In this document: in pieces, positions 20,301 to 32,889 of the stretch | Position numbering within the stretch: the first letter of the stretch is position 1 | How the letters are laid out: every line of letters begins with the position of its first letter | DNA from: Akkermansia muciniphila | GTDB lineage: Bacteria > Verrucomicrobiota > Verrucomicrobiia > Limisphaerales > BJHT01 | Reading direction: 5' to 3' | DNA: 64,000 nt | Assembly: GCA_945861535.1 (NCBI GenBank) | Contig: CAMAUZ010000016.1 | Span: forward strand, 1-64,000 | Program-made: the position numbers and the translations under genes | Notes under the pieces: model-generated | Seen by the model: only the letters and a program-made list of their open reading frames with translations | Databases searched by the model: none | What the model was told of the DNA's origin: nothing

Positions 20301-23300
20301 TCATTTCCCCCTCCGTATCAGCCGGTCGGTCGCGGGGCGAACCATTTGGACCTCAGGCTCGAACTGAAACGGCTGCGGGGCCTTCAAGCTCCCGCCGCCC
20401 TTCGTTTTCAACTCGCCGTCTTTCACCACGACATCCTCCACCGCATACAGCGCACCGGTTCGCTTCGCCTTCGGGTCTGACACGGGACCGTCGTGATGCC
20501 GCAGGAACTGCTGCATCTCGTCGAGGTTGAACGGACGCGAGCCGCGACGACCGAACACCACGGTCTGGTTGCCGCTCTCGTCCACGACGCGATCGCGGTC
20601 CAGTCCGCGCGAGACGGCCACCGCCGGCCCGTGCGTGGGATAGGTCGCGATCAGTTTCGGATTCGGCGTCGGGCTAAAACCCATGTGCGTCGGCACGTTC
20701 TCGGGCGAGATTATCTGGAGCACGCGCAGGCCGTTCTTCCCGTCCGCGACGAGCGCAAACATCGAGGCGCTCACCGAGCCGATCTGCACGGCGCGCGTGT
20801 CGTTGAGCGCGCCGTCGGCGTTGAACATCCGTTCCAGCTTGGGTTTCCCCGGGTTTGTGATGTCGATGAACGCCATCCCCTCGGGGCCGTTGGCGACGTA
20901 GGCGTAGGTGCGCGCGTGATAAAAACGCCCCGCATTTTTCAGCGGCACCGTCGCGCCGGGCACCAGCTTCGGCCGCGACGGATCGCTGATGTCCACCACC
21001 TTGAAGCCCTCGTCGTCCGTCACGTAGGCGTAGCGAAACTGTACAGATACCGCCCGCGGATGCTTGAACTCACCGCCGCTCAACTCAGCGATCAGCTTCG
21101 GTTCCTTCAGCTCGGTGTTGCTCAACGCGAGGACGAACAGGCCCTTCTCGGCGACGACAAACAAGTTCGTGCCCGCCATGTACGAGTGCATGGCGCCGGT
21201 GAGTTTCCCGTCCGGGTTGAAGCGGATGATCTTCTCCTTATCGAGGAAGTTGTTGTTCGGATTGCCATCCACCAGCGTGCCGACGCTCACCATCACGAGG
21301 CCCTCGTCGCGGTCGGTCACGAACACCCACGCGTAAATGAGGCTGATGGGCTGCTCCTGATTTTCCGGCAGCCGCTGGCGCAGCGGATCAATGCCCAGCG
21401 TGCTCGGCAGCGTGACGCTGGTCGCATACTTGGTGCGCACGTAGAGCCGCTGACCGAGCGGCGAGACGGGCGCGGTGACGATGCGTTCGCTGAAGCCCTT
21501 TTGATCAATGTTCGCGACATCGAAGACCTCGAAGCCGTCCGCGCCGTTGGCCGTGTAGAGGTATTCACCGCGCAACGTGAGATCGAGGATCTCCTTCGCG
21601 TGATGGTGATGCGCGAGGTCGTCGCCGTCCTGTCTCGCCGGCAGGACGCCTTGGTTTTTCCCGACGTGCCGCGCGTAGTTGTCCGGATAGGCGAGGGAAT
21701 GCAAGTGGCTGCCGATGGCCGCCTGCGGCTCTTCCTGCTCGGTCCACGCCACGCCGTAGAGGCCGTCCTTGCCCGCGCCGACCCACGCGTACCGGCCGAA
21801 GAAATTCACCGTGCCCGTGCCGAATCCGAGCAGCGACGTCATCCACGCGTTGTTGTCGTTGTCCTTCGACAGATGGCAGTCGGTGCAGCCCTTGGTCGTG
21901 CCGACGCTGCTGGTCGTGTGCGGGAAATGCGGGTTGTAAGCCTGACCGCTGTAGCCCTCGGCGCTCACGGTCTGCTGCTGCGAATACACCCACTCGCGGT
22001 TGCCGTTCTGCGAGCCGACAATCACCGCGCTCGAGGAGCGCAGCACGGCCATGCGGTGGTTTTTGTAAGTTGCATCCACGCCGAGCTGGAACACGTCGTC
22101 GCGCACGACCTGCGGGTTGTAGCCCGTGAAATTGCGCGTGGTCATGCCCTCGAATTTGTTCAGCGGCACGCGCTGGTTGGCGCGCATCGGCAGGTGACAG
22201 CCGAAACAGCTCGTCGCCCACGACGAATGGCAGACCTGGCAGGAGAGATTCGAGTTGTCGTGCGCGAGGTCCTTGGCGCACGCCTCCGCCTGTAGCCGCC
22301 GACGTGAGGAGGCGGAGTCGGTGTCGGGTGCGTCGCCGGGCCGCCTCCTCACGTCGGCGGGTACGGCGGCAGCTACGTTGGGCACGTCGCCCCACGTCTC
22401 GCCGTCGCGCCGCAGGGTTTTGGCATAGCGGGCCTTGGCGTTGTAGCGCGGGTGCTGCGGATTGATGATGTCCATGGTCTGCGGTACGGCCCAGCGCACG
22501 TCGGGGGAGAGCGTGCTGCGCTGGAACAGTTTCTTGTCATCCCACACGAAGCGCGGCCCCCACGGCGTCGAGGATTTCGTGAGGTCGATGCCCTGGCCCT
22601 TGTTCCCGAATTTCCCGCCGTTGCCGCTCGTGACCAGCGTGGGCCGCGCGTTGACCGTGCCGTGGCAGTCGATGCACTCGATGGTCGTGGCCGCGCGCGG
22701 TTCGCCGTAGAGATGCCCGTCGCCGTGGACATCGCCGAGGAAATGGCAATCAACGCACTGCATTCCCTTGGCGAGGTGGATGTCTTTCAAATGTACCGCC
22801 TTCTCGAACTTGTGCGCGTCGTCGTGCGGGATCGTGCGGTCCTGGAGATCGAGCAGGTTGCCTTTCTTGTCCTTCTTGAACACGGCGCGGAAGACCCAGC
22901 CGTGGCCGTGGTAGTCGGCGAACTGCGTCTCTTTCATTTTCGGATTCAGCTCGGCGACCTTTTCGAGGAAGTCGAGTTCGCCCCACAGGCCGCGCGCGGC
23001 GGCGGCTTCGGGATTCTTGCGGATGGCGTGGACGAGTTGCTCGTCGGTGGGATTTTTCTGCTGCGTCATCTGCTCGCGCGTGCGGTTGCCGCGGAAATGC
23101 GGATCATCGGCGAGCGGGTTTTTCGGATGCGGATACATGAACTTGCCGTCGCTCTCCTGATCCCACCAAGTGTAGCCGAGGAACGGATTCACAAAGAGAT
23201 TTCCCTGGTGCATGTGGCAGTTCATGCACTGGCTCGAGGGGATGGCGCGCGTGAACTCGTGCTTGATCGGATGCCCGCGCTCGTCCTTGCGAATCGCGTT

Positions 23301-24365
23301 ATCGCCGCTGAAGGAGAGGCCTTGGTGACCGTACTTGGAATACCAGCTCGAATGCGTCGGCGAGCGGTCATTCGCATACACGACATGGCACGCCGTGCAG
23401 CCGCTGGAGCGGTAATCGCCGGGATGATTGTTGCTGCCCATGAAGTCGAGGAGCGGATCGTGCAGGCGCGTTTTCTGGAGGTTGAGATAGACGGGATCGA
23501 TGCGGTTCAACGTGCCGAGGCCGCGGTCGCTGAGGCGGCGCGCGGGTTTGCCGGCCGGTTCGGTGGTCGTGGGAATGCCGAGCTGGAGCTGCTTTTCGCC
23601 GCCTTTTTCAAAGATGCGCAGGATGTTGCTCGGCTGGCCGATGGCGAAGCGCGGTAGCGGATCGAGGAAGGGCAGCACGCCGTATTTCAGCGTGTCCTCG
23701 GGCGTGACGGGCGTCGGCGAGAGCAGTCGCAGCGCCGTGCCGTCGGGCGCGTAGGCCTGACCGTAGCGCGGGTTTTTCTGCGGAATCGCGCCGTTGTTGT
23801 AGAGCGCCGCGCCCCAGAGCATCGCGCCGTGGCGCATCATCGAATGGCCCACGTCCTTCACTTCCTTCGCGTGACACAGGCCGCACGCCTTGCCGGCCAC
23901 GCGCAGGTCGCCGGGGTTCACGAACTGGATGAACTCGGGCGACTCGTGATTGAGCAGCACGGTCGAGTCGTTCGGGTTCGCCGAGCTGTGCCAGAACTCC
24001 GGATGCACCGGCGGCACGTGGGCCTTGCGCATCGTGAGGCCCGCGCCGGGATTGCCGCCGTGACAATCGGTGCAGCCGAGCACGACGTTGCGCGAGCGGT
24101 GCATCGTGTGCGTGTCCGTGCCCGCGTGGCACTCGAGGCAGCCGCGCGATTTGAGCAACGCCTCTTCGGGCGATTGGTCGATCCAATTGGATTTCGGCAA
24201 CGGCCGCGCCGGCGCCGAGGGTGGGGAGAGTGGGACGGAAATCTCGGGGCCGGACGGGGAAGAAGAAGCTCCAAGAGCAAAGCTCAAAGAGACAAGAAAG
24301 GTCCAAGTGACAAGAGCCAAGCTCCACAGGAAGGATCGCGGGGAGTTGTTCAGTTTTGTCTCCAT
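20301..24365 (-). CDS. Giant multiheme cytochrome c with LVIVD beta-propeller
   Basis: 1354 aa from ATG 24365 (METKLNNSPRSFLWSLALV, signal peptide to about residue 37); upstream in-frame ATGs lie in repeat DNA. Ten CXXCH sites: CLECH, CTDCH, CGLCH, CTACH, CMNCH, CVDCH, CIDCH, CQVCH, CFGCH, CTDCH. Residues about 900-1300 carry LVIVD-type repeats (YLYTANGADGFEVFDVAN; YAYVTDDEGFKVVDISDP; YAYVANGPEGMAFIDITNP). A palindromic element adds about 28 codons at residues 664-691 without breaking the frame. It is paired with the beta-barrel gene upstream on the same strand, so it could be the heme wire of an outer-membrane conduit or an extracellular reductase. The substrate cannot be told from the sequence. 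Confidence 0.75.
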   Translation of the reverse strand: METKLNNSPRSFLWSLALVTWTFLVSLSFALGASSSPSGPEISVPLSPPSAPARPLPKSNWIDQSPEEALLKSRGCLECHAGTDTHTMHRSRNVVLGCTDCHGGNPGAGLTMRKAHVPPVHPEFWHSSANPNDSTVLLNHESPEFIQFVNPGDLRVAGKACGLCHAKEVKDVGHSMMRHGAMLWGAALYNNGAIPQKNPRYGQAYAPDGTALRLLSPTPVTPEDTLKYGVLPFLDPLPRFAIGQPSNILRIFEKGGEKQLQLGIPTTTEPAGKPARRLSDRGLGTLNRIDPVYLNLQKTRLHDPLLDFMGSNNHPGDYRSSGCTACHVVYANDRSPTHSSWYSKYGHQGLSFSGDNAIRKDERGHPIKHEFTRAIPSSQCMNCHMHQGNLFVNPFLGYTWWDQESDGKFMYPHPKNPLADDPHFRGNRTREQMTQQKNPTDEQLVHAIRKNPEAAAARGLWGELDFLEKVAELNPKMKETQFADYHGHGWVFRAVFKKDKKGNLLDLQDRTIPHDDAHKFEKAVHLKDIHLAKGMQCVDCHFLGDVHGDGHLYGEPRAATTIECIDCHGTVNARPTLVTSGNGGKFGNKGQGIDLTKSSTPWGPRFVWDDKKLFQRSTLSPDVRWAVPQTMDIINPQHPRYNAKARYAKTLRRDGETWGDVPNVAAAVPADVRRRPGDAPDTDSASSRRRLQAEACAKDLAHDNSNLSCQVCHSSWATSCFGCHLPMRANQRVPLNKFEGMTTRNFTGYNPQVVRDDVFQLGVDATYKNHRMAVLRSSSAVIVGSQNGNREWVYSQQQTVSAEGYSGQAYNPHFPHTTSSVGTTKGCTDCHLSKDNDNNAWMTSLLGFGTGTVNFFGRYAWVGAGKDGLYGVAWTEQEEPQAAIGSHLHSLAYPDNYARHVGKNQGVLPARQDGDDLAHHHHAKEILDLTLRGEYLYTANGADGFEVFDVANIDQKGFSERIVTAPVSPLGQRLYVRTKYATSVTLPSTLGIDPLRQRLPENQEQPISLIYAWVFVTDRDEGLVMVSVGTLVDGNPNNNFLDKEKIIRFNPDGKLTGAMHSYMAGTNLFVVAEKGLFVLALSNTELKEPKLIAELSGGEFKHPRAVSVQFRYAYVTDDEGFKVVDISDPSRPKLVPGATVPLKNAGRFYHARTYAYVANGPEGMAFIDITNPGKPKLERMFNADGALNDTRAVQIGSVSASMFALVADGKNGLRVLQIISPENVPTHMGFSPTPNPKLIATYPTHGPAVAVSRGLDRDRVVDESGNQTVVFGRRGSRPFNLDEMQQFLRHHDGPVSDPKAKRTGALYAVEDVVVKDGELKTKGGGSLKAPQPFQFEPEVQMVRPATDRLIRRGK
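22291..22374. repeat. Palindromic element inserted in frame within the 10-heme/LVIVD gene
   Basis: The arms are CCGCCGACGTGAGGAGGCGG (22296-22315) and its exact inverse CCGCCTCCTCACGTCGGCGG (22341-22360). The insert encodes an Arg/Ala/Asp-rich peptide (VPADVRRRPGDAPD, then SASSRRRLQA) between heme sites 7 and 8. The same arm occurs alone at 16503-16529, and related arms (TGTAGGAGACGACGTGAGGA) occur at 38303, 38574 and 47615. Confidence 0.8.
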
Positions 24366-24384
24366 CTGATTAGCATCCGGCTTC

Positions 24385-24765
24385 AGCCGGGGAAGCTGGT
24401 TAGCCCCAACGGGGCGGCGCCATGCCAGCCCAGGGCAGAGCGCAGCGCCGCCCTGGGTTGGGTAGTCAAATGGAGAGCAGCCCTGAAGGGGCGTACCATG
24501 GGCGGGGCCGGGCGGGGCGATAGGCCGCCCCTTCAGGGCTTTGGTTTTGCTCCACAGCGTCCCAGGGCGATGCCCTGGGCTGGTATGTTGCCGCCCCGTT
24601 GGGGCTAGACCGAAGCTTGCCCGGCCGTTACGAGGCAGAGCGCCGACGAGCCCTTCCAACGGCTTTGGTGCATGGACTTCGCACGTCGCTCCGGCTCGAA
24701 AACCGCTAAAGCGGTTGTGGTCATTGGAGTCGCTGAACACCCGGCTGAAGCCGGGTGCCAATGAG
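24385..24765. repeat. Cluster of several palindromic repeats
   Basis: This gap holds short mirrored motifs: CCCCAACGGGGCGGC (about 24404) against GCCGCCCCGTTGGGG (about 24591); CCCTGAAGGGGCG (about 24482) against CGCCCCTTCAGGG (about 24525); GCCCAGGGCAGAGC and CCCAGGGCGATGCCCTGGGC; and CCGGCTGAAGCCGG near 24740. No credible gene lies between 24366 and 24905. Confidence 0.65.
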
Positions 24766-24905
24766 ATGGGGAAGCAGAAGCCCACGAGTGAGTCGCAGTT
24801 TTCTCGCGTGTATGTCCGCGCCTTGAACCTTTGAGCTTGGCCCTTCCCTTGAGCTTTGAGCTTTGAGCTTTGAGCTTCTTCCCCGGGAGTTTTCGTTTTC
24901 ATAGT

Positions 24906-27651: not shown

Positions 27652-27679
27652 CCCCTTGCATCAGGCGGATGCAAAGGGG
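27652..27679 (-). terminator. Rho-independent terminator after hpnJ
   Basis: Read on the minus strand, CCCCTTTGCATC-CGCC-TGATGCAAGGGG forms a near-perfect 11-12 bp stem, followed by ATTTTCTGTGTTT. It lies 40 bp after the hpnJ stop and 95 bp before the beta-barrel start, separating the hopanoid operon from the electron-transfer genes. Confidence 0.7.
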
Positions 27680-27717
27680 CTGACGGAATTGCCGAGAGTC
27701 AGTCCCGGCGGCCCCGG

Positions 27718-29181
27718 TTATGCGGCCGCGATGGCCGCCGCGGACTTGGAGGCGGCCAGATCGACTTTGCGCTGGTTCAGGCTCTTGAAGAATTCGTAGC
27801 CTTCGCGGCAGCGGCGGACGAAGACGTCCTTGTCCTCAAGCATGGTCTTGATGATGCGGAGGATGGGTTTCGGGCGCAGATAGTAGCTGCGATAGAACCG
27901 GTCCACGGCCTCGAAGATTTCGTCCTTGGTTGCCTCGGGGTAGGCAAGGGTGGATTGCTGGAAGCCGTCGCCTTCGACGAGGTCGGTCTTGTCTTTCTTG
28001 GTGAACCAGCCGTTGAGCTTGGCCTGGTCGTAGAGTTCGGTGCCGGGATAGGGCGCGGCGAGGGAGACTTGGAGACTGAAGACATCCAGTTCCTGGGCGA
28101 AGCGGATGGTCTGTTCGATGGTCTCTTTAGTCTCGACCGGGAGACCTAGAATAAACGTGCCGTGAATGATGACTCCCGCCTGGTGACAGGACTTGGTGAA
28201 CTTACGCATCTCGTCGGTGGTGACGCCTTTCTTGATGCGGGTGAGGGTTTCATCATTGCCGCTCTCATAGCCGACGAGGAAGAGACGGAGGCCGGAGTCT
28301 TTGAACTGTTTGATGGTGTCGGCATCCAGGTTCGCGCGGCTGTTGCAGGACCAAGTTAGTCCTAAGTTGGACAGTTTCTTCGCGATGTCACGGGCGCGCG
28401 GGAGGTTGGCGGTGAAGGTGTCGTCGTCGAAGAAGAATTCGCGCACCTGCGGGAAGAGTTTCTTCATGTAGGCCATTTCGTCGGCAACGTTTTGCGGCGA
28501 ACGGACGCGGTACTTATGACCGCCGATGGTCTGCGGCCAGAGACAGAAGGTGCATTGGGCGGGGCAGCCGCGGCCGGTGTACATGCTGATGTAAGGGTGC
28601 ATCAGATAGCCGATGAAGTATTTCTCGATGTCGAGGTCGCGTTTGTACACGTCCGCCACCCAGGGGAGTGAGTCCATGTTCTGGATCATCTCACGCTCGG
28701 GGTTGTGTTTGATCTTGCCGTCTTTGTCCTTGAAGGAGAGGCCGGCGACGCTTTCGAGCGGGCGGCCTTCGGCGACTTCCTTGCAGGTGAAGTCGAACTC
28801 CTTGCGCCCGACCCAGTCGATGGCGGGCGAGGCTTTGAGAGTCTCGGTGGGCAACACCATGGTGTGCGCGCCAACAAAGCCGATCTTGGTCTCGGGCCGC
28901 TGCTGCTTGATGGCTTCGGCGACCTTGGAGTCATTTTTCAACGACGGCGTGGAAGTGTTGATGATGACGTGGTCGAAGCCTTTGGCGATGGCGAGGCATT
29001 GCTTCACGTCCACGCCGTGCGGCGGGCAGTCGAGCAGCTTCGAGCCGGCCACGAGGGCCGCGGGCTGGGCGAGCCAGGTGGGATACCAATAGCTGGTGAC
29101 TTCGCGCCGCGCCTGATAGCGCGCGCCGGCGCCGCCGTCAAAGCCGTCGAAGGAGGGGGGGGAGAGGAATAGTGCGCTCAT
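27718..29181 (-). CDS. hpnJ: Hopanoid biosynthesis B12-binding radical SAM protein HpnJ
   Basis: 487 aa. The N-terminus FLSPPSFDGFDGGAGARYQA, then REVTSYWYPTWLAQPAALV, is the HpnJ signature. Residues about 20-170 form the cobalamin-binding fold. The radical SAM cluster motif is CPAQCTFC (CX3CX2C) near residue 215, followed by FFFDDDTFTANLPRARDI. The C-terminal 80 residues are the usual helical domain (RFYRSYYLRPKP). From known genetics HpnJ is needed to form the cyclitol ether of bacteriohopanetetrol on side-chain-extended hopanoids. It is last in a minus-strand operon with hpnH, 28 bp after an OLD-like ATPase gene. The squalene-hopene cyclase and other hpn genes are not in this window. Confidence 0.85.
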   Translation of the reverse strand: MSALFLSPPSFDGFDGGAGARYQARREVTSYWYPTWLAQPAALVAGSKLLDCPPHGVDVKQCLAIAKGFDHVIINTSTPSLKNDSKVAEAIKQQRPETKIGFVGAHTMVLPTETLKASPAIDWVGRKEFDFTCKEVAEGRPLESVAGLSFKDKDGKIKHNPEREMIQNMDSLPWVADVYKRDLDIEKYFIGYLMHPYISMYTGRGCPAQCTFCLWPQTIGGHKYRVRSPQNVADEMAYMKKLFPQVREFFFDDDTFTANLPRARDIAKKLSNLGLTWSCNSRANLDADTIKQFKDSGLRLFLVGYESGNDETLTRIKKGVTTDEMRKFTKSCHQAGVIIHGTFILGLPVETKETIEQTIRFAQELDVFSLQVSLAAPYPGTELYDQAKLNGWFTKKDKTDLVEGDGFQQSTLAYPEATKDEIFEAVDRFYRSYYLRPKPILRIIKTMLEDKDVFVRRCREGYEFFKSLNQRKVDLAASKSAAAIAAA

Positions 29182-29208
29182 TTATATGTCTAGTTTTTCC
29201 AATTCAAT

Positions 29209-30735
29209 TCAATGGACCGATCCATTACCGTTCTGAACAAGGTAAGAGTTAACGGTGGCTGACAGGTGCCGCGCCTCTGGTTGTTTTGTATGGCAATACG
29301 CTGAAATTATCGCCAACCGGACGGTCTCTTCTGGCACGAAACCTAGACGCTGTCCAATCTTGCTGAACACCAAGTGCATATCAGAGGTTCCCGTGGCTTC
29401 TGATTCAATAACTCGCCTGACAAGCTCTTGTTCGTCTGGACGGCGGTTTAGCGCAACGGTAAGAACACCCAGATTTGCGGGGTATCCTTCACGGACGGCG
29501 TCCAAAATCACTTCTTCGGGCATCAGGTTGCCAGGCAACCGGAATACCTTGTCTGGCAGGGAAACATCTGTGGGAGTGTCTCCGTCAACAAAACCAATGG
29601 CCGGGAACCGCTTCGATGGATTTTGATTGTGAGCTTCGGTGTGCTGAACGACAGCACTATGGCTGCCGATGGGGTAGAACTCCACCAGTGACATTTCATC
29701 GGTCATTCCCGAAAAACGCATCATCCCCTGTATCCAAGCGATGGCTGTCGAATCCTCAGCGTAGATTACCAGCTTGGTGTCAGATTCACCGCGAATTGCC
29801 AGGACGTCTTGGACACGCAGCCGCCCATTGACCAGTTCCCCGCCACGAGCCGCCCAAATTGCCTCTCGTGGCAATGGGTCGAGTGCGTATTCGGAATGGG
29901 TAGTGAAAATAATCTGGCACCGTTTCCGGTCAGCGACCCCAACCAAGTATTCGACCAGCTTTCGGACCGCGAAAGGATGAAGAGTGGTTTCGATCTCTTC
30001 AATTAGGACGAGCGCCTGGTCTTCGGGGGAAAGCTGTTCGAGATGGGCAACCAGTTCGATTATGACGGAAATGCCGGCACCAAAATGAAACTGCGAGTGC
30101 CTCATCGCCCCGGCGAAGCCGATCATCGGCTTTTTTGAAGCGGCCTTGGAATAACGGCTCAAGTCGACACCAAGAATGCGAGACGCGTGTTCAATCACCG
30201 CCGAATCAAGGACTGCATAGTCTTCCTCAGTTAGTTTGTCTGGATACAGCCGAAACTTGGTGAACTCAGATCGTTCGCCTGCAGGCAAAGCGCGCTTGAC
30301 TCCGAAAAAAAGAATCTTCCGTTGAAGTGCCTCACGGTTCCATCGACTCTTGGGGTGCGTGACACTTCGCTCGATTTCTCCCTCGCGCTTCTTCTCCCGG
30401 TCAATCAGGCGATAGGCAACACGCACATCCTTCATCGCCTCTTGATCGACTGAACTGACGGCAAAAAAAGAGCTCGGAGTGCATTCCCGATAGATGAGCG
30501 CGGACGCGCCCAGGACGGTTGATTTCCCCCCCCCGTTGGGACCGATCAATGCAGTGACGGGGAAACGGAAGCGGATGGTTGCATCGCTAAAGGCCCGCAA
30601 TTTGTGAAGGGTCATGCTGTGGAGATACTTTTTGTATCCGCCGCCTTCGACCTTTTCTTTCAGATTTCGAATGAGGCTTTCTCGAACTTCACTTCGATAA
30701 GCACCACCCGTCGGACTTGTGGGGTTAACAGGCAT
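29209..30735 (-). CDS. OLD-like ATPase with TOPRIM domain (candidate defence nuclease)
   Basis: 508 aa. N-terminal ATPase: TLHKLRAFSDATIRFRFPVT, then Walker A GPNGGGKST near residue 70, Walker B LVLIEEIETTLHPFAVRKL and the switch FTTHSEYALDPLP. The C-terminal half fits a TOPRIM fold: LVIYAEDSTAIAWIQGMM (catalytic Glu) and AIGFVDGDTP (DxD-like), then a helical tail. OLD-family proteins are ATP-dependent nucleases, many of them antiphage. The gene lies between the toxin-antitoxin pair and hpnJ with gaps of 22 and 28 bp, inside what should be a hopanoid operon. It has no role in hopanoid synthesis that I know of and looks like inserted cargo using the operon's transcription. Confidence 0.7.
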   Translation of the reverse strand: MPVNPTSPTGGAYRSEVRESLIRNLKEKVEGGGYKKYLHSMTLHKLRAFSDATIRFRFPVTALIGPNGGGKSTVLGASALIYRECTPSSFFAVSSVDQEAMKDVRVAYRLIDREKKREGEIERSVTHPKSRWNREALQRKILFFGVKRALPAGERSEFTKFRLYPDKLTEEDYAVLDSAVIEHASRILGVDLSRYSKAASKKPMIGFAGAMRHSQFHFGAGISVIIELVAHLEQLSPEDQALVLIEEIETTLHPFAVRKLVEYLVGVADRKRCQIIFTTHSEYALDPLPREAIWAARGGELVNGRLRVQDVLAIRGESDTKLVIYAEDSTAIAWIQGMMRFSGMTDEMSLVEFYPIGSHSAVVQHTEAHNQNPSKRFPAIGFVDGDTPTDVSLPDKVFRLPGNLMPEEVILDAVREGYPANLGVLTVALNRRPDEQELVRRVIESEATGTSDMHLVFSKIGQRLGFVPEETVRLAIISAYCHTKQPEARHLSATVNSYLVQNGNGSVH

Positions 30736-30756
30736 TGGTTGAGAAGCTTCCCGCAG

Positions 30757-31020
30757 TCAGCCGATCAGTTTGTTGTAGTTTTCGTGCGTGCCAATCCAGA
30801 CCCATTCCACTGTGTCACCGACCAGATGTCCGACGGCCCGGTAGTGGTCGCCGATTCTGACGGAGAACCGGTTGGCACCACCCTTGAGTTTCTTGAAATG
30901 GAGCGATGGGTGTTGATGGTCTTTTAGCCAAAGCAGGTAATTCTTTCGAGCGAGCAACTGGACGCTGACGGGCAAGTCCGAGAAGGCCTGCCAGAAGCGC
31001 CGGGTGGCCCGTGACTTCAT
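30757..31020 (-). CDS. RelE/HigB-type toxin
   Basis: 87 aa from ATG 31020, which overlaps the upstream stop (ATGA). It is basic and short with a RelE/ParE-like pattern: SRATRRFWQAFSDLPVSVQ at the start, LHFKKLKGGANRFSVRIG in the centre, then DHYRAVGHLVGDTVEWVWIG, the strand series that carries catalytic residues in RelE-type ribosome-dependent mRNA interferases. The conserved YR of the family is present as HYRAV. The antitoxin gene precedes it. A ParE-type gyrase toxin is the alternative. Confidence 0.7.
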   Translation of the reverse strand: MKSRATRRFWQAFSDLPVSVQLLARKNYLLWLKDHQHPSLHFKKLKGGANRFSVRIGDHYRAVGHLVGDTVEWVWIGTHENYNKLIG

Positions 31021-31223
31021 TTGGGCCAGTAGGTCAGATATCCGCCCCGGCACTCTGTTTCAGCTTCGCGGAACAGGAAGTCGAGCTTCCCGGCCTCGGC
31101 ATCGCGGTCCATCTGAGCATCCCAACTCCGTGCCTCACGACCGGCCAACCACGAGGCGAGCGTGGCCTGCTCGGGCGCAGGAAGTTTCTCAATCGCCTGT
31201 TCGATTTCGAGAAGGGTACTCAT
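31017..31223 (-). CDS. Antitoxin of RelE-type module
   Basis: 68 aa, acidic, MSTLLEIEQAIEKLPAPEQA, then TLASWLAGREARSWDAQM. It begins within the hpnH stop (ATGA overlap at 31220-31223) and overlaps the toxin start in the same way. It has no separate DNA-binding domain that I can see; the helices probably wrap the toxin. Tight overlaps on both sides mean hpnH, antitoxin and toxin are translationally coupled, so dosage of the module would follow hopanoid operon expression. Confidence 0.6.
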   Translation of the reverse strand: MSTLLEIEQAIEKLPAPEQATLASWLAGREARSWDAQMDRDAEAGKLDFLFREAETECRGGYLTYWPK

Positions 31224-32659
31224 TCCGCCTTGGTCGTCACCGTGCCGTTCGCCTTGAGCTTGGCCAGCAAGTCATCGCGTTGCGAAGTATCACCCGTGCC
31301 GCAGGCGCCGCCGGTGGCGGCGGGGGCGGGCGCGTGGGTGTGATCCTCCACTTCCTTGCGGGAGAAGGCGCCACGGGCGTTGGCGGCGGGATTGATCGCG
31401 GCCTTGGCTTGGGCGAGGTGGCCTTTGCCGATGGTCACGCCGTTGAAGGCGCGCTTTTCCAGTTCAACACTGGCGGGATACGGCTTGGGTTTTGCGCCGA
31501 AGTTATAGCGCATATTGATCCAGGTATCGCGCGGCTTGTTGCTCAGCGCGCCGCTCGGATCGTAGCCGCAGTGGACCATGCAGTGTTCGCAGCGCGGATC
31601 GCGGGCGACGCCGTTGACCACGCCGTATTTCTCCCAGTTCACGGTGCCGAGCATCTCGCCGTAGGTCGGATAGTGACCGTCGGTCATCAGATAGCATGGG
31701 GCTTTCCAGCCCTTGACGTTGTAAGTCGGGATGGCCCATGCGGTGCAGGTCAGTTCGCGTTTGCCAGCGAGAAACTCCTGATAGACCGGCGTGCCGAAAA
31801 TGGTGAACGCCTTGCCCCATTGCTCGATTTTGGCGAATTTCGCCCGCGTCATTTCGCGGGTAAGGAAAAACTCCTTCGGGTCGCGACCGAGACGTTTGAC
31901 CATGTCTTTCTTCGCGGCGTCGTAGTCATAACCGGGGGAAATAGTGTGGCCGTCCACGTCGAGCGAGGAGAGATACTTGAACATGTCCTCGATCTCCTGC
32001 ACGTCGGTCTCGCGATAGACGGTCGTGTTGGTCGCGCATTGGTAACCGAGAATTTTGGCCATCTTGATGGCGGCGACGCATTCCTTGAAGACGCCCTCGC
32101 GCTCGACGATGAGGTCGTGGGTGTGTTCCAAGCCGTCCACATGGACATTCCAATATTGCCACTTGCTGGGGACGATCGTGACCTTCTTGCGCGCGGCTTC
32201 GTCGGCGTTGCGAATCTGTGTGGCTTCTTTCTCAGTGACGAGGTTTTCGGCGACGAGCTTTTGGAGCTGCGGTTCCATCGCGGGCGAGAAGTGCGCGGCC
32301 ATGTAGTCGCGCATTTTCTTCCGCATGAAGACGCCGTTGGTGCAGATGTAAATGATCCGGCCTTGGGCGCGCAGCCCGGCCACCAGTTCCTCGATTTTCG
32401 GATAAATCAGCGGCTCGCCACCGCAGACCGACACCATCGGCGCGTCGCAATCCTGCGCGGCGGCCAGGCATTGTTCGAGCGGCACCATGTCCTTGAGATT
32501 GGTGGAATACTCGCGGATGCGGCCGCAGCCGGTGCAGGTGAGATTGCAGGTGTGCAGCGGTTCGAGCTGCAAAACCATGGCGAACTTGGGGGTCTTGGCC
32601 AGCTTGTGCTTGACGATGTGCCTGGCGATCTTGACCGTGAGCGCGAGTGGGAAACGCAT
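31220..32659 (-). CDS. hpnH: Adenosyl-hopene transferase HpnH (radical SAM)
   Basis: 479 aa. It starts MRFPLALTVKIARHIVKHKL; the cluster motif is CNLTCTGC (Cys38, 42, 45; CX3CX2C) and the SAM-binding GGEPL lies near residue 80. The C-terminal part has the Cys-rich HpnH region (CYLMTDGHY; RCEHCMVHCGYDPSGA). HpnH is known to add a 5'-deoxyadenosyl radical to diploptene/hopene, giving adenosylhopane, the first side-chain step. The protein is longer than the usual 340-390 aa, with an insertion around residues 118-160 and an 80-residue low-complexity tail (HAPAPAATGGACGTG). It follows a lipoprotein gene by 27 bp. Confidence 0.85.
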   Translation of the reverse strand: MRFPLALTVKIARHIVKHKLAKTPKFAMVLQLEPLHTCNLTCTGCGRIREYSTNLKDMVPLEQCLAAAQDCDAPMVSVCGGEPLIYPKIEELVAGLRAQGRIIYICTNGVFMRKKMRDYMAAHFSPAMEPQLQKLVAENLVTEKEATQIRNADEAARKKVTIVPSKWQYWNVHVDGLEHTHDLIVEREGVFKECVAAIKMAKILGYQCATNTTVYRETDVQEIEDMFKYLSSLDVDGHTISPGYDYDAAKKDMVKRLGRDPKEFFLTREMTRAKFAKIEQWGKAFTIFGTPVYQEFLAGKRELTCTAWAIPTYNVKGWKAPCYLMTDGHYPTYGEMLGTVNWEKYGVVNGVARDPRCEHCMVHCGYDPSGALSNKPRDTWINMRYNFGAKPKPYPASVELEKRAFNGVTIGKGHLAQAKAAINPAANARGAFSRKEVEDHTHAPAPAATGGACGTGDTSQRDDLLAKLKANGTVTTKAE

Positions 32660-32685
32660 AGGTAATGTAACTAAGGAAAATGTCT

Positions 32686-32889
32686 CTACGCCAACTGTCC
32701 GATGGTCTCCACCACAGGCGCTTGCGGCTGCGGCGCAGCGGGGGCCGGGGCGGCTTTTATGAAGCCAGGCAGCAGGAACATGAGCGGGGAAACGCTACCG
32801 GTCCCGTTGATACCCGAGCAGCCAACAAGCATTCCGCCCGCCAGCAGACTGAGGATCAGGGACCCCATGAAATTGCGAGTGCGTCGCAT
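32686..32889 (-). CDS. Small lipoprotein
   Basis: 67 aa: basic N-terminus MRRTRNF, hydrophobic core, lipobox LVGC (Cys24), then SGINGTGSVSPLMFLLPGF and a Pro/Ala/Gln-rich end. There is no recognisable domain. It is the first gene of the hpnH operon, 27 bp upstream of hpnH. Its start is only 18 bp from the divergent ATG of the TPR gene at 32908, so the two promoters must overlap coding sequence or one of the starts is wrong. Confidence 0.55.
   Translation of the reverse strand: MRRTRNFMGSLILSLLAGGMLVGCSGINGTGSVSPLMFLLPGFIKAAPAPAAPQPQAPVVETIGQLA

Follow-up and report, generated by a model that had tools for sequence, protein, structure and literature searches.

The boundary between the hopanoid biosynthesis genes hpnH and hpnJ probably acts, in one order of Verrucomicrobia, as an intercistronic landing site at which addiction and defence cassettes arrive repeatedly as passengers. 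We analysed positions 27652 to 32889 of a 64 000 nt window (contig CAMAUZ010000016.1 of the assembly GCA_945861535.1, Akkermansia muciniphila), where a toxin–antitoxin (TA) pair with a ParE_like toxin and a gene for an ATPase–TOPRIM protein of the HEC-04/IbfA family fill the slot between the two genes (Table 1). The order lipoprotein–hpnH–antitoxin–toxin–ATPase–hpnJ on one strand, with gaps of at most 27 bp or ATGA overlaps and a terminator after hpnJ, had been given in a preliminary description of this DNA, and its coordinates hold. HpnH and HpnJ were also correctly taken for hopanoid enzymes: since both pass the NCBIfam equivalog cut-offs (TIGR03470 and TIGR03471) and a squalene-hopene cyclase is found in the same assembly (TIGR01507, 684.6 bits, cut-off 431), the host pathway is real. 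As for the three middle genes, they are indeed intruders of addiction or defence type in a conserved lipoprotein–hpnH–hpnJ operon, but the OLD-like label given to the third has to be replaced by HEC-04/IbfA.

The hpnH–hpnJ spacing was compared in relatives using hpnJ and its surroundings from 146 genomes of the same order, which comprises soil and freshwater bacteria, plus 80 named loci, mostly from Verrucomicrobia subdivision 3 (i.e. Limisphaerales or Pedosphaera-like); the relatives are mostly metagenome-assembled genomes. Removal of duplicates left 105 junctions with both genes, and five further junctions, all insert-free, brought the total to 110. Normally hpnH is directly followed by hpnJ, with a gap of <150 bp in 78 of the 105 junctions and some genes even overlapping. 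Inserts of at least 400 bp were present in 18 of the 110, i.e. around 84 % of the relatives have no such insert, and the middle genes are not kept at this place by all relatives, as true pathway members would be.

All 18 inserts lie in the orientation of the operon (p = 4e-6 versus random orientation), and the same gap holds different cassettes, of six or more kinds (Table 1). ParE_like, NTP_transf_2 with HEPN, DUF433, HicB and N6_N4_Mtase were confirmed by Pfam, while the DUF5615 and HicA partners are sub-threshold Pfam matches beside clear partner genes. Since the 220 aa partner of the methylase in L050 gave no match, calling that insert a restriction–modification system would be a guess only. 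In one further genome (G055), the C-terminus of a toxin lies immediately 5′ of hpnJ at a contig edge. In addition, three loci (L036, L039 and L083) show gaps of 265–323 bp with small hydrophobic open reading frames (ORFs) of 86–104 aa, two of which were run against Pfam and had no match.

One tight group of loci, in which the hpnJ starts are 91–98 % identical, includes a ParE_like pair (L044), the methylase pair (L050), an MNT/HEPN pair (L037), a DUF433/DUF5615 pair (L127) and two empty alleles (L124 and L128). Here, similarity extends to the hpnH stop codon and restarts at the hpnJ start codon. The hpnH stop is TAA in the empty alleles and (A/G)TGA in the filled ones, several of which therefore have a cassette start codon that overlaps it. 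Across all junctions TGA is likewise commoner as the hpnH stop in filled ones (12/18 vs 27/78, p = 0.017). On the tree of hpnH plus hpnJ, the filled alleles are scattered nearly as shuffled labels would be, the 16 filled leaves requiring 14 Fitch changes against a shuffled-label mean of 15.9. The flanks are uninterrupted in TA-less relatives and empty alleles stand beside filled ones on the tree, as is expected of intercistronic TA insertions.

With regard to how cassettes enter and leave, no recombinase ORFs were seen in them. The unrelated cassettes of L037 and L127 have a right-hand spacer of around 30 bp in common (ACTGACTACTGAACA-TTTCC), within the approximately 45 bp preceding hpnJ, which hints either that one cassette replaced the other or that both carry a common repeat. 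Both cassette ends show a short (A/G)TGAG similarity that start and stop codons could account for. It might be speculated that the boundary is an order-wide exchange slot, in which recombinase-less TA, methylase and defence cassettes are swapped between species, either by recombination in the conserved flanks on both sides (hpnH and hpnJ) or by insertion where stop and start overlap at (A/G)TGAG. We hold this more far-reaching proposal only tentatively and rather doubt it; if true, it would provide a traceable route for the movement of small addiction modules.

A landing site calls for comparison with other operon junctions. No insert and no TA pair was found in the 29 accB–accC junctions, nor was any insert found in the 50 recognisable cases of the lipoprotein–hpnH junction within the same operon. 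TA pairs were likewise absent from the 27 sucC–sucD junctions, around 10 of which nevertheless contained inserts (VOC-like or retropepsin-like genes and one nucleotidyltransferase-like gene). The VOC/glyoxalase-like or retropepsin-like genes were located in L296, L299, L300, L301, L302, L303, L307, L312 and L315. Two other intended controls, trpA and leuD, were dropped because no consistently adjacent partner could be found for them in this order. When the controls are pooled, TA pairs occur in 0/106 junctions compared with 15/110 at hpnH–hpnJ (Fisher p = 4e-5).

Several points weigh against a landing site of this kind. The control samples are small and were taken from the best-scoring 30 genomes rather than matched one to one, and accB–accC and sucC–sucD are each weak when taken alone (p about 0.04). 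Because sucC–sucD also gathers genes, hpnH–hpnJ is not the only junction that tolerates inserts; and kin of the ParE_like pair recur beside ABC-transporter ATPase genes, so that several operon sites, hpnH–hpnJ among them, are recurrent. Part of the insert count is vertical inheritance, as in L000 and L033 and possibly in L041 and L114. One could go further and argue that the site is not special at all, i.e. that short operon gaps in general tolerate insertions, that hpnH–hpnJ was sampled because it was noticed, and that its richness in TA pairs mirrors the many TA genes of these genomes; besides the inserts in sucC–sucD, the presence of DUF433 in 101 and of ParE_like in 50 of the 146 genomes would fit with that. 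We consider this unlikely, since it does not accommodate the absence of TA pairs from the control junctions and of any insert from lipoprotein–hpnH. Moreover, one genome (G064) has a single DUF433 match, and there is a DUF433 gene in its hpnH–hpnJ junction.

The alternative put forward in the preliminary description was a functional one: translational coupling of hpnH with the antitoxin would tie lipid synthesis to toxin control, or the TA pair, with HEC-04, would protect hpnH and hpnJ from loss. The layout of the operon is compatible with this. The hpnH stop shares an ATGA with the start codon of the antitoxin gene, whose own stop codon shares one with the start of the toxin gene, while the toxin and ATPase genes are 21 bp and the ATPase gene and hpnJ 27 bp apart. 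No promoter-like sites were found between the genes on the minus strand of the operon; the sole promoter-like match lies just 5′ of the lipoprotein gene and is within chance expectation. From the spacing, a single transcript across all genes is plausible. The lipoprotein gene is part of the same unit, as a lipoprotein ORF of around 67 aa is found directly 5′ of hpnH, with a gap of at most 84 bp, in at least 50 recognisable relatives, in none of which the two are separated. A congeneric genome (G001) has the same gene order, with proteins 91–98 % identical, and since this order is kept within the genus the arrangement is not due to chance.

Regardless, coupling appears very improbable. Most relatives have hpnH–hpnJ without any such cassette, unrelated cassettes occupy the slot in near-identical hosts, and strong HEC-04 matches in the order are restricted to this genus. 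In the sister genome G001, the toxin gene (L033/L194, G001:C124:3817-4077) is broken by an in-frame stop following codon 13, while its partner antitoxin, HEC-04 and the operon are intact. Protection of the operon from loss fares no better, given that it has survived the broken toxin and that non-addictive acyltransferases are also found in the slot.

Passenger cassettes at a recurrent landing site, our preferred explanation, would work as follows. Small self-contained units would land between the hpnH stop and the hpnJ start in the orientation of the operon, often with their start overlapping the hpnH stop, and so placed they would be transcribed with the operon and leave it unbroken. In the window, the ParE_like pair would have entered first, probably, because relatives have the pair alone, and HEC-04 would have joined it later, in this genus. 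Both would stay as passengers that are gained, swapped and lost, with no part in hopanoid synthesis.

The ATPase–TOPRIM protein matches the PADLOC HEC-04 model over its full length (515.6 bits, E = 3e-155, model positions 2–489 of 494). Annotation as an OLD nuclease was rejected, as the Old model scores 47 bits vs 516 for HEC-04, which makes the protein only distantly OLD-like. Alignment with three plasmid homologues showed that Walker A, Walker B and the acidic residues of the TOPRIM domain are intact (GPNGGGK, FHFGAG, IEEIE, TTHS, E327-D328 and D384-G385-D386). Identity is 35–38 % to the nearest plasmid homologues and around 26 % to the Salmonella plasmid matches among those listed, and strong matches within the order are confined to this genus. 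The GC content at third codon positions (GC3) is 0.56, compared with 0.81–0.82 in hpnH and hpnJ. HEC-04 combines an ABC ATPase with TOPRIM in one protein and is a homologue of IbfA from IncI1 plasmids; IbfA alone lowers phage yield in Salmonella, and the same is stated for HEC-04 in Escherichia coli (PMC12111858). The gene described here resembles these single-gene phage defences in its full ATPase–TOPRIM architecture, its conserved catalytic motifs and its best PADLOC model by far; unlike them, it is located in a chromosomal lipid operon and not on a plasmid or in a defence locus. By analogy with HEC-04/IbfA (PMC12111858), it may be an infection-sensing protein that cuts phage yield. A structure predicted by AlphaFold from the single sequence had a mean confidence (predicted local distance difference test, pLDDT) of 38 and was discarded.

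The TA pair is predicted from family membership to be an ordinary type II system. The toxin lies above the Pfam cut-off for ParE_like (PF24732), a family that all 13 aligned relatives match as well, and the antitoxin comes first with an ATGA overlap, as in other ParE_like or RelE/ParE type II pairs. In contrast to these, the antitoxin fits no described family: it had no match in Pfam, NCBIfam or PADLOC, although, as a conserved partner, it precedes the ParE_like toxin in most of the relatives that were examined. When its profile was compared with solved structures, it matched solely the N-termini of L7/L12, which were taken as chance. For the toxin, the predicted model (pLDDT 56) gave RelE/YafQ-type toxins as top Foldseek matches, none of them significant (E = 0.03 or worse), and unrelated folds were mixed in at equal Z in the VIA-align list; a search of solved structures with the toxin profile returned RelE3 as best match, which was also not significant (E = 0.35). 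A second operon site at which kin of the pair recur was seen in different genomes (L203 and L207, with L201 nearby), where they lie next to or in between two ATPase genes of oligopeptide-type ABC transporters. Other ParE_like pairs (L200 and L204, with L219) are found near a shared gene family resembling the CRISPR-associated Cas7.

That the pair and HEC-04 form a composite defence unit, with the TA pair as trigger or guard of an ATPase–TOPRIM effector, seems highly improbable to us. They are adjacent and co-directional at a distance of 21 bp, are kept together in two congeneric genomes, and a Phd/YefM antitoxin is found near one plasmid homologue of HEC-04. However, the pair occurs without HEC-04 in three relatives (G144, G045 and L114), HEC-04 remains intact beside the broken toxin of G001, and IbfA acts on its own in Salmonella (PMC12111858). 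GC3 also differs, i.e. 0.67–0.73 in the TA genes vs 0.56 in HEC-04.

Comparable situations are known from E. coli, where TA systems lie between operon genes in relA–mazEF–mazG and dinB–yafNO–yafP, and where the flanking pair is uninterrupted in TA-less strains; the relA–mazG gap hosts other TA systems too, such as parDE in Salmonella, and no functional link with the neighbours is reported (PMC7167474). The hpnH–hpnJ junction belongs to this known kind, with TA pairs inside an operon pair that is undisturbed elsewhere and different TA systems in the same gap. It stands apart in that a single junction takes up a wider range of cassettes: across an order, four TA families, a methylase pair, HEC-04 and acyltransferases are found in it. 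It further differs in that the host operon makes hopanoids and that the first codon of the cassette often overlaps the stop codon before it. Mobile restriction–modification systems, too, can move without a known mobile element, according to the work of Furuta et al. 2010 as described in PMC3874152. The cassettes described here are like them in being addictive two-gene units in the chromosome without integrase or transposase, with one methylase pair in this very slot, and unlike them in that neither a duplicated target nor inverted repeats at the termini were demonstrated. A literature search for hopanoid together with toxin–antitoxin yielded nothing relevant.

How TA systems integrate and pick their chromosomal sites is stated to be unresolved in a review (PMC7167474). 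The junction offers a natural series for this question, with the same flanks in many close relatives, alleles both with and without a cassette, and unrelated cassettes that replace one another at boundaries defined to the base, so that movement and site choice of TA and defence modules become testable by strain comparison. It is also a warning that operon membership should not be read as functional coupling.

Table 1. Features of the locus (positions within the window) and contents of the hpnH–hpnJ slot in the window and its relatives
Feature	Location	Strand	Basis or remark
Small lipoprotein ORF, 67 aa	32686..32889	-	First gene of the operon; lipobox MLVGC
hpnH, adenosyl-hopene transferase (radical SAM)	31220..32659	-	TIGR03470, 359.3 bits, cut-off 225
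Antitoxin, 68 aa	31017..31223	-	Start codon overlaps hpnH stop (ATGA); position before ParE_like toxin
Toxin, 87 aa, ParE_like (RelE/ParE superfamily)	30757..31020	-	PF24732, 42.7 bits, cut-off 24.4
HEC-04/IbfA-family ATPase–TOPRIM phage-defence gene, 508 aa	29209..30735	-	PADLOC PDLC04149, E = 3e-155
hpnJ, hopanoid biosynthesis associated radical SAM protein	27718..29181	-	TIGR03471, 743.2 bits, cut-off 577.6
Intrinsic-terminator-like stem-loop 3′ of hpnJ	27652..27678	-	11 bp stem, T-rich tail
Inserted segment (whole slot, hpnH stop to hpnJ start)	29182..31219	-	2038 bp vs typical <150 bp in relatives
Slot: ParE_like pair and HEC-04	Window, G001
Slot: ParE_like pair alone	G144, G045, L114
Slot: MNT/HEPN (nucleotidyltransferase, NTP_transf_2 and HEPN)	L037, L059, L072, L166, L173
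Slot: DUF433 and DUF5615/PIN-like protein	L061, L064, L084, L127
Slot: HicA/HicB-like pair	L113
Slot: DNA methylase (N6_N4_Mtase) and unassigned ORF	L050
Slot: acyltransferases (non-addictive)	L048, L053

Elsewhere in the window, a multihaem-cytochrome-like ORF was noted at 20301-24902 on the minus strand. Its first approximately 150 residues resemble translated repeat or intergenic DNA, and its true start is probably internal.

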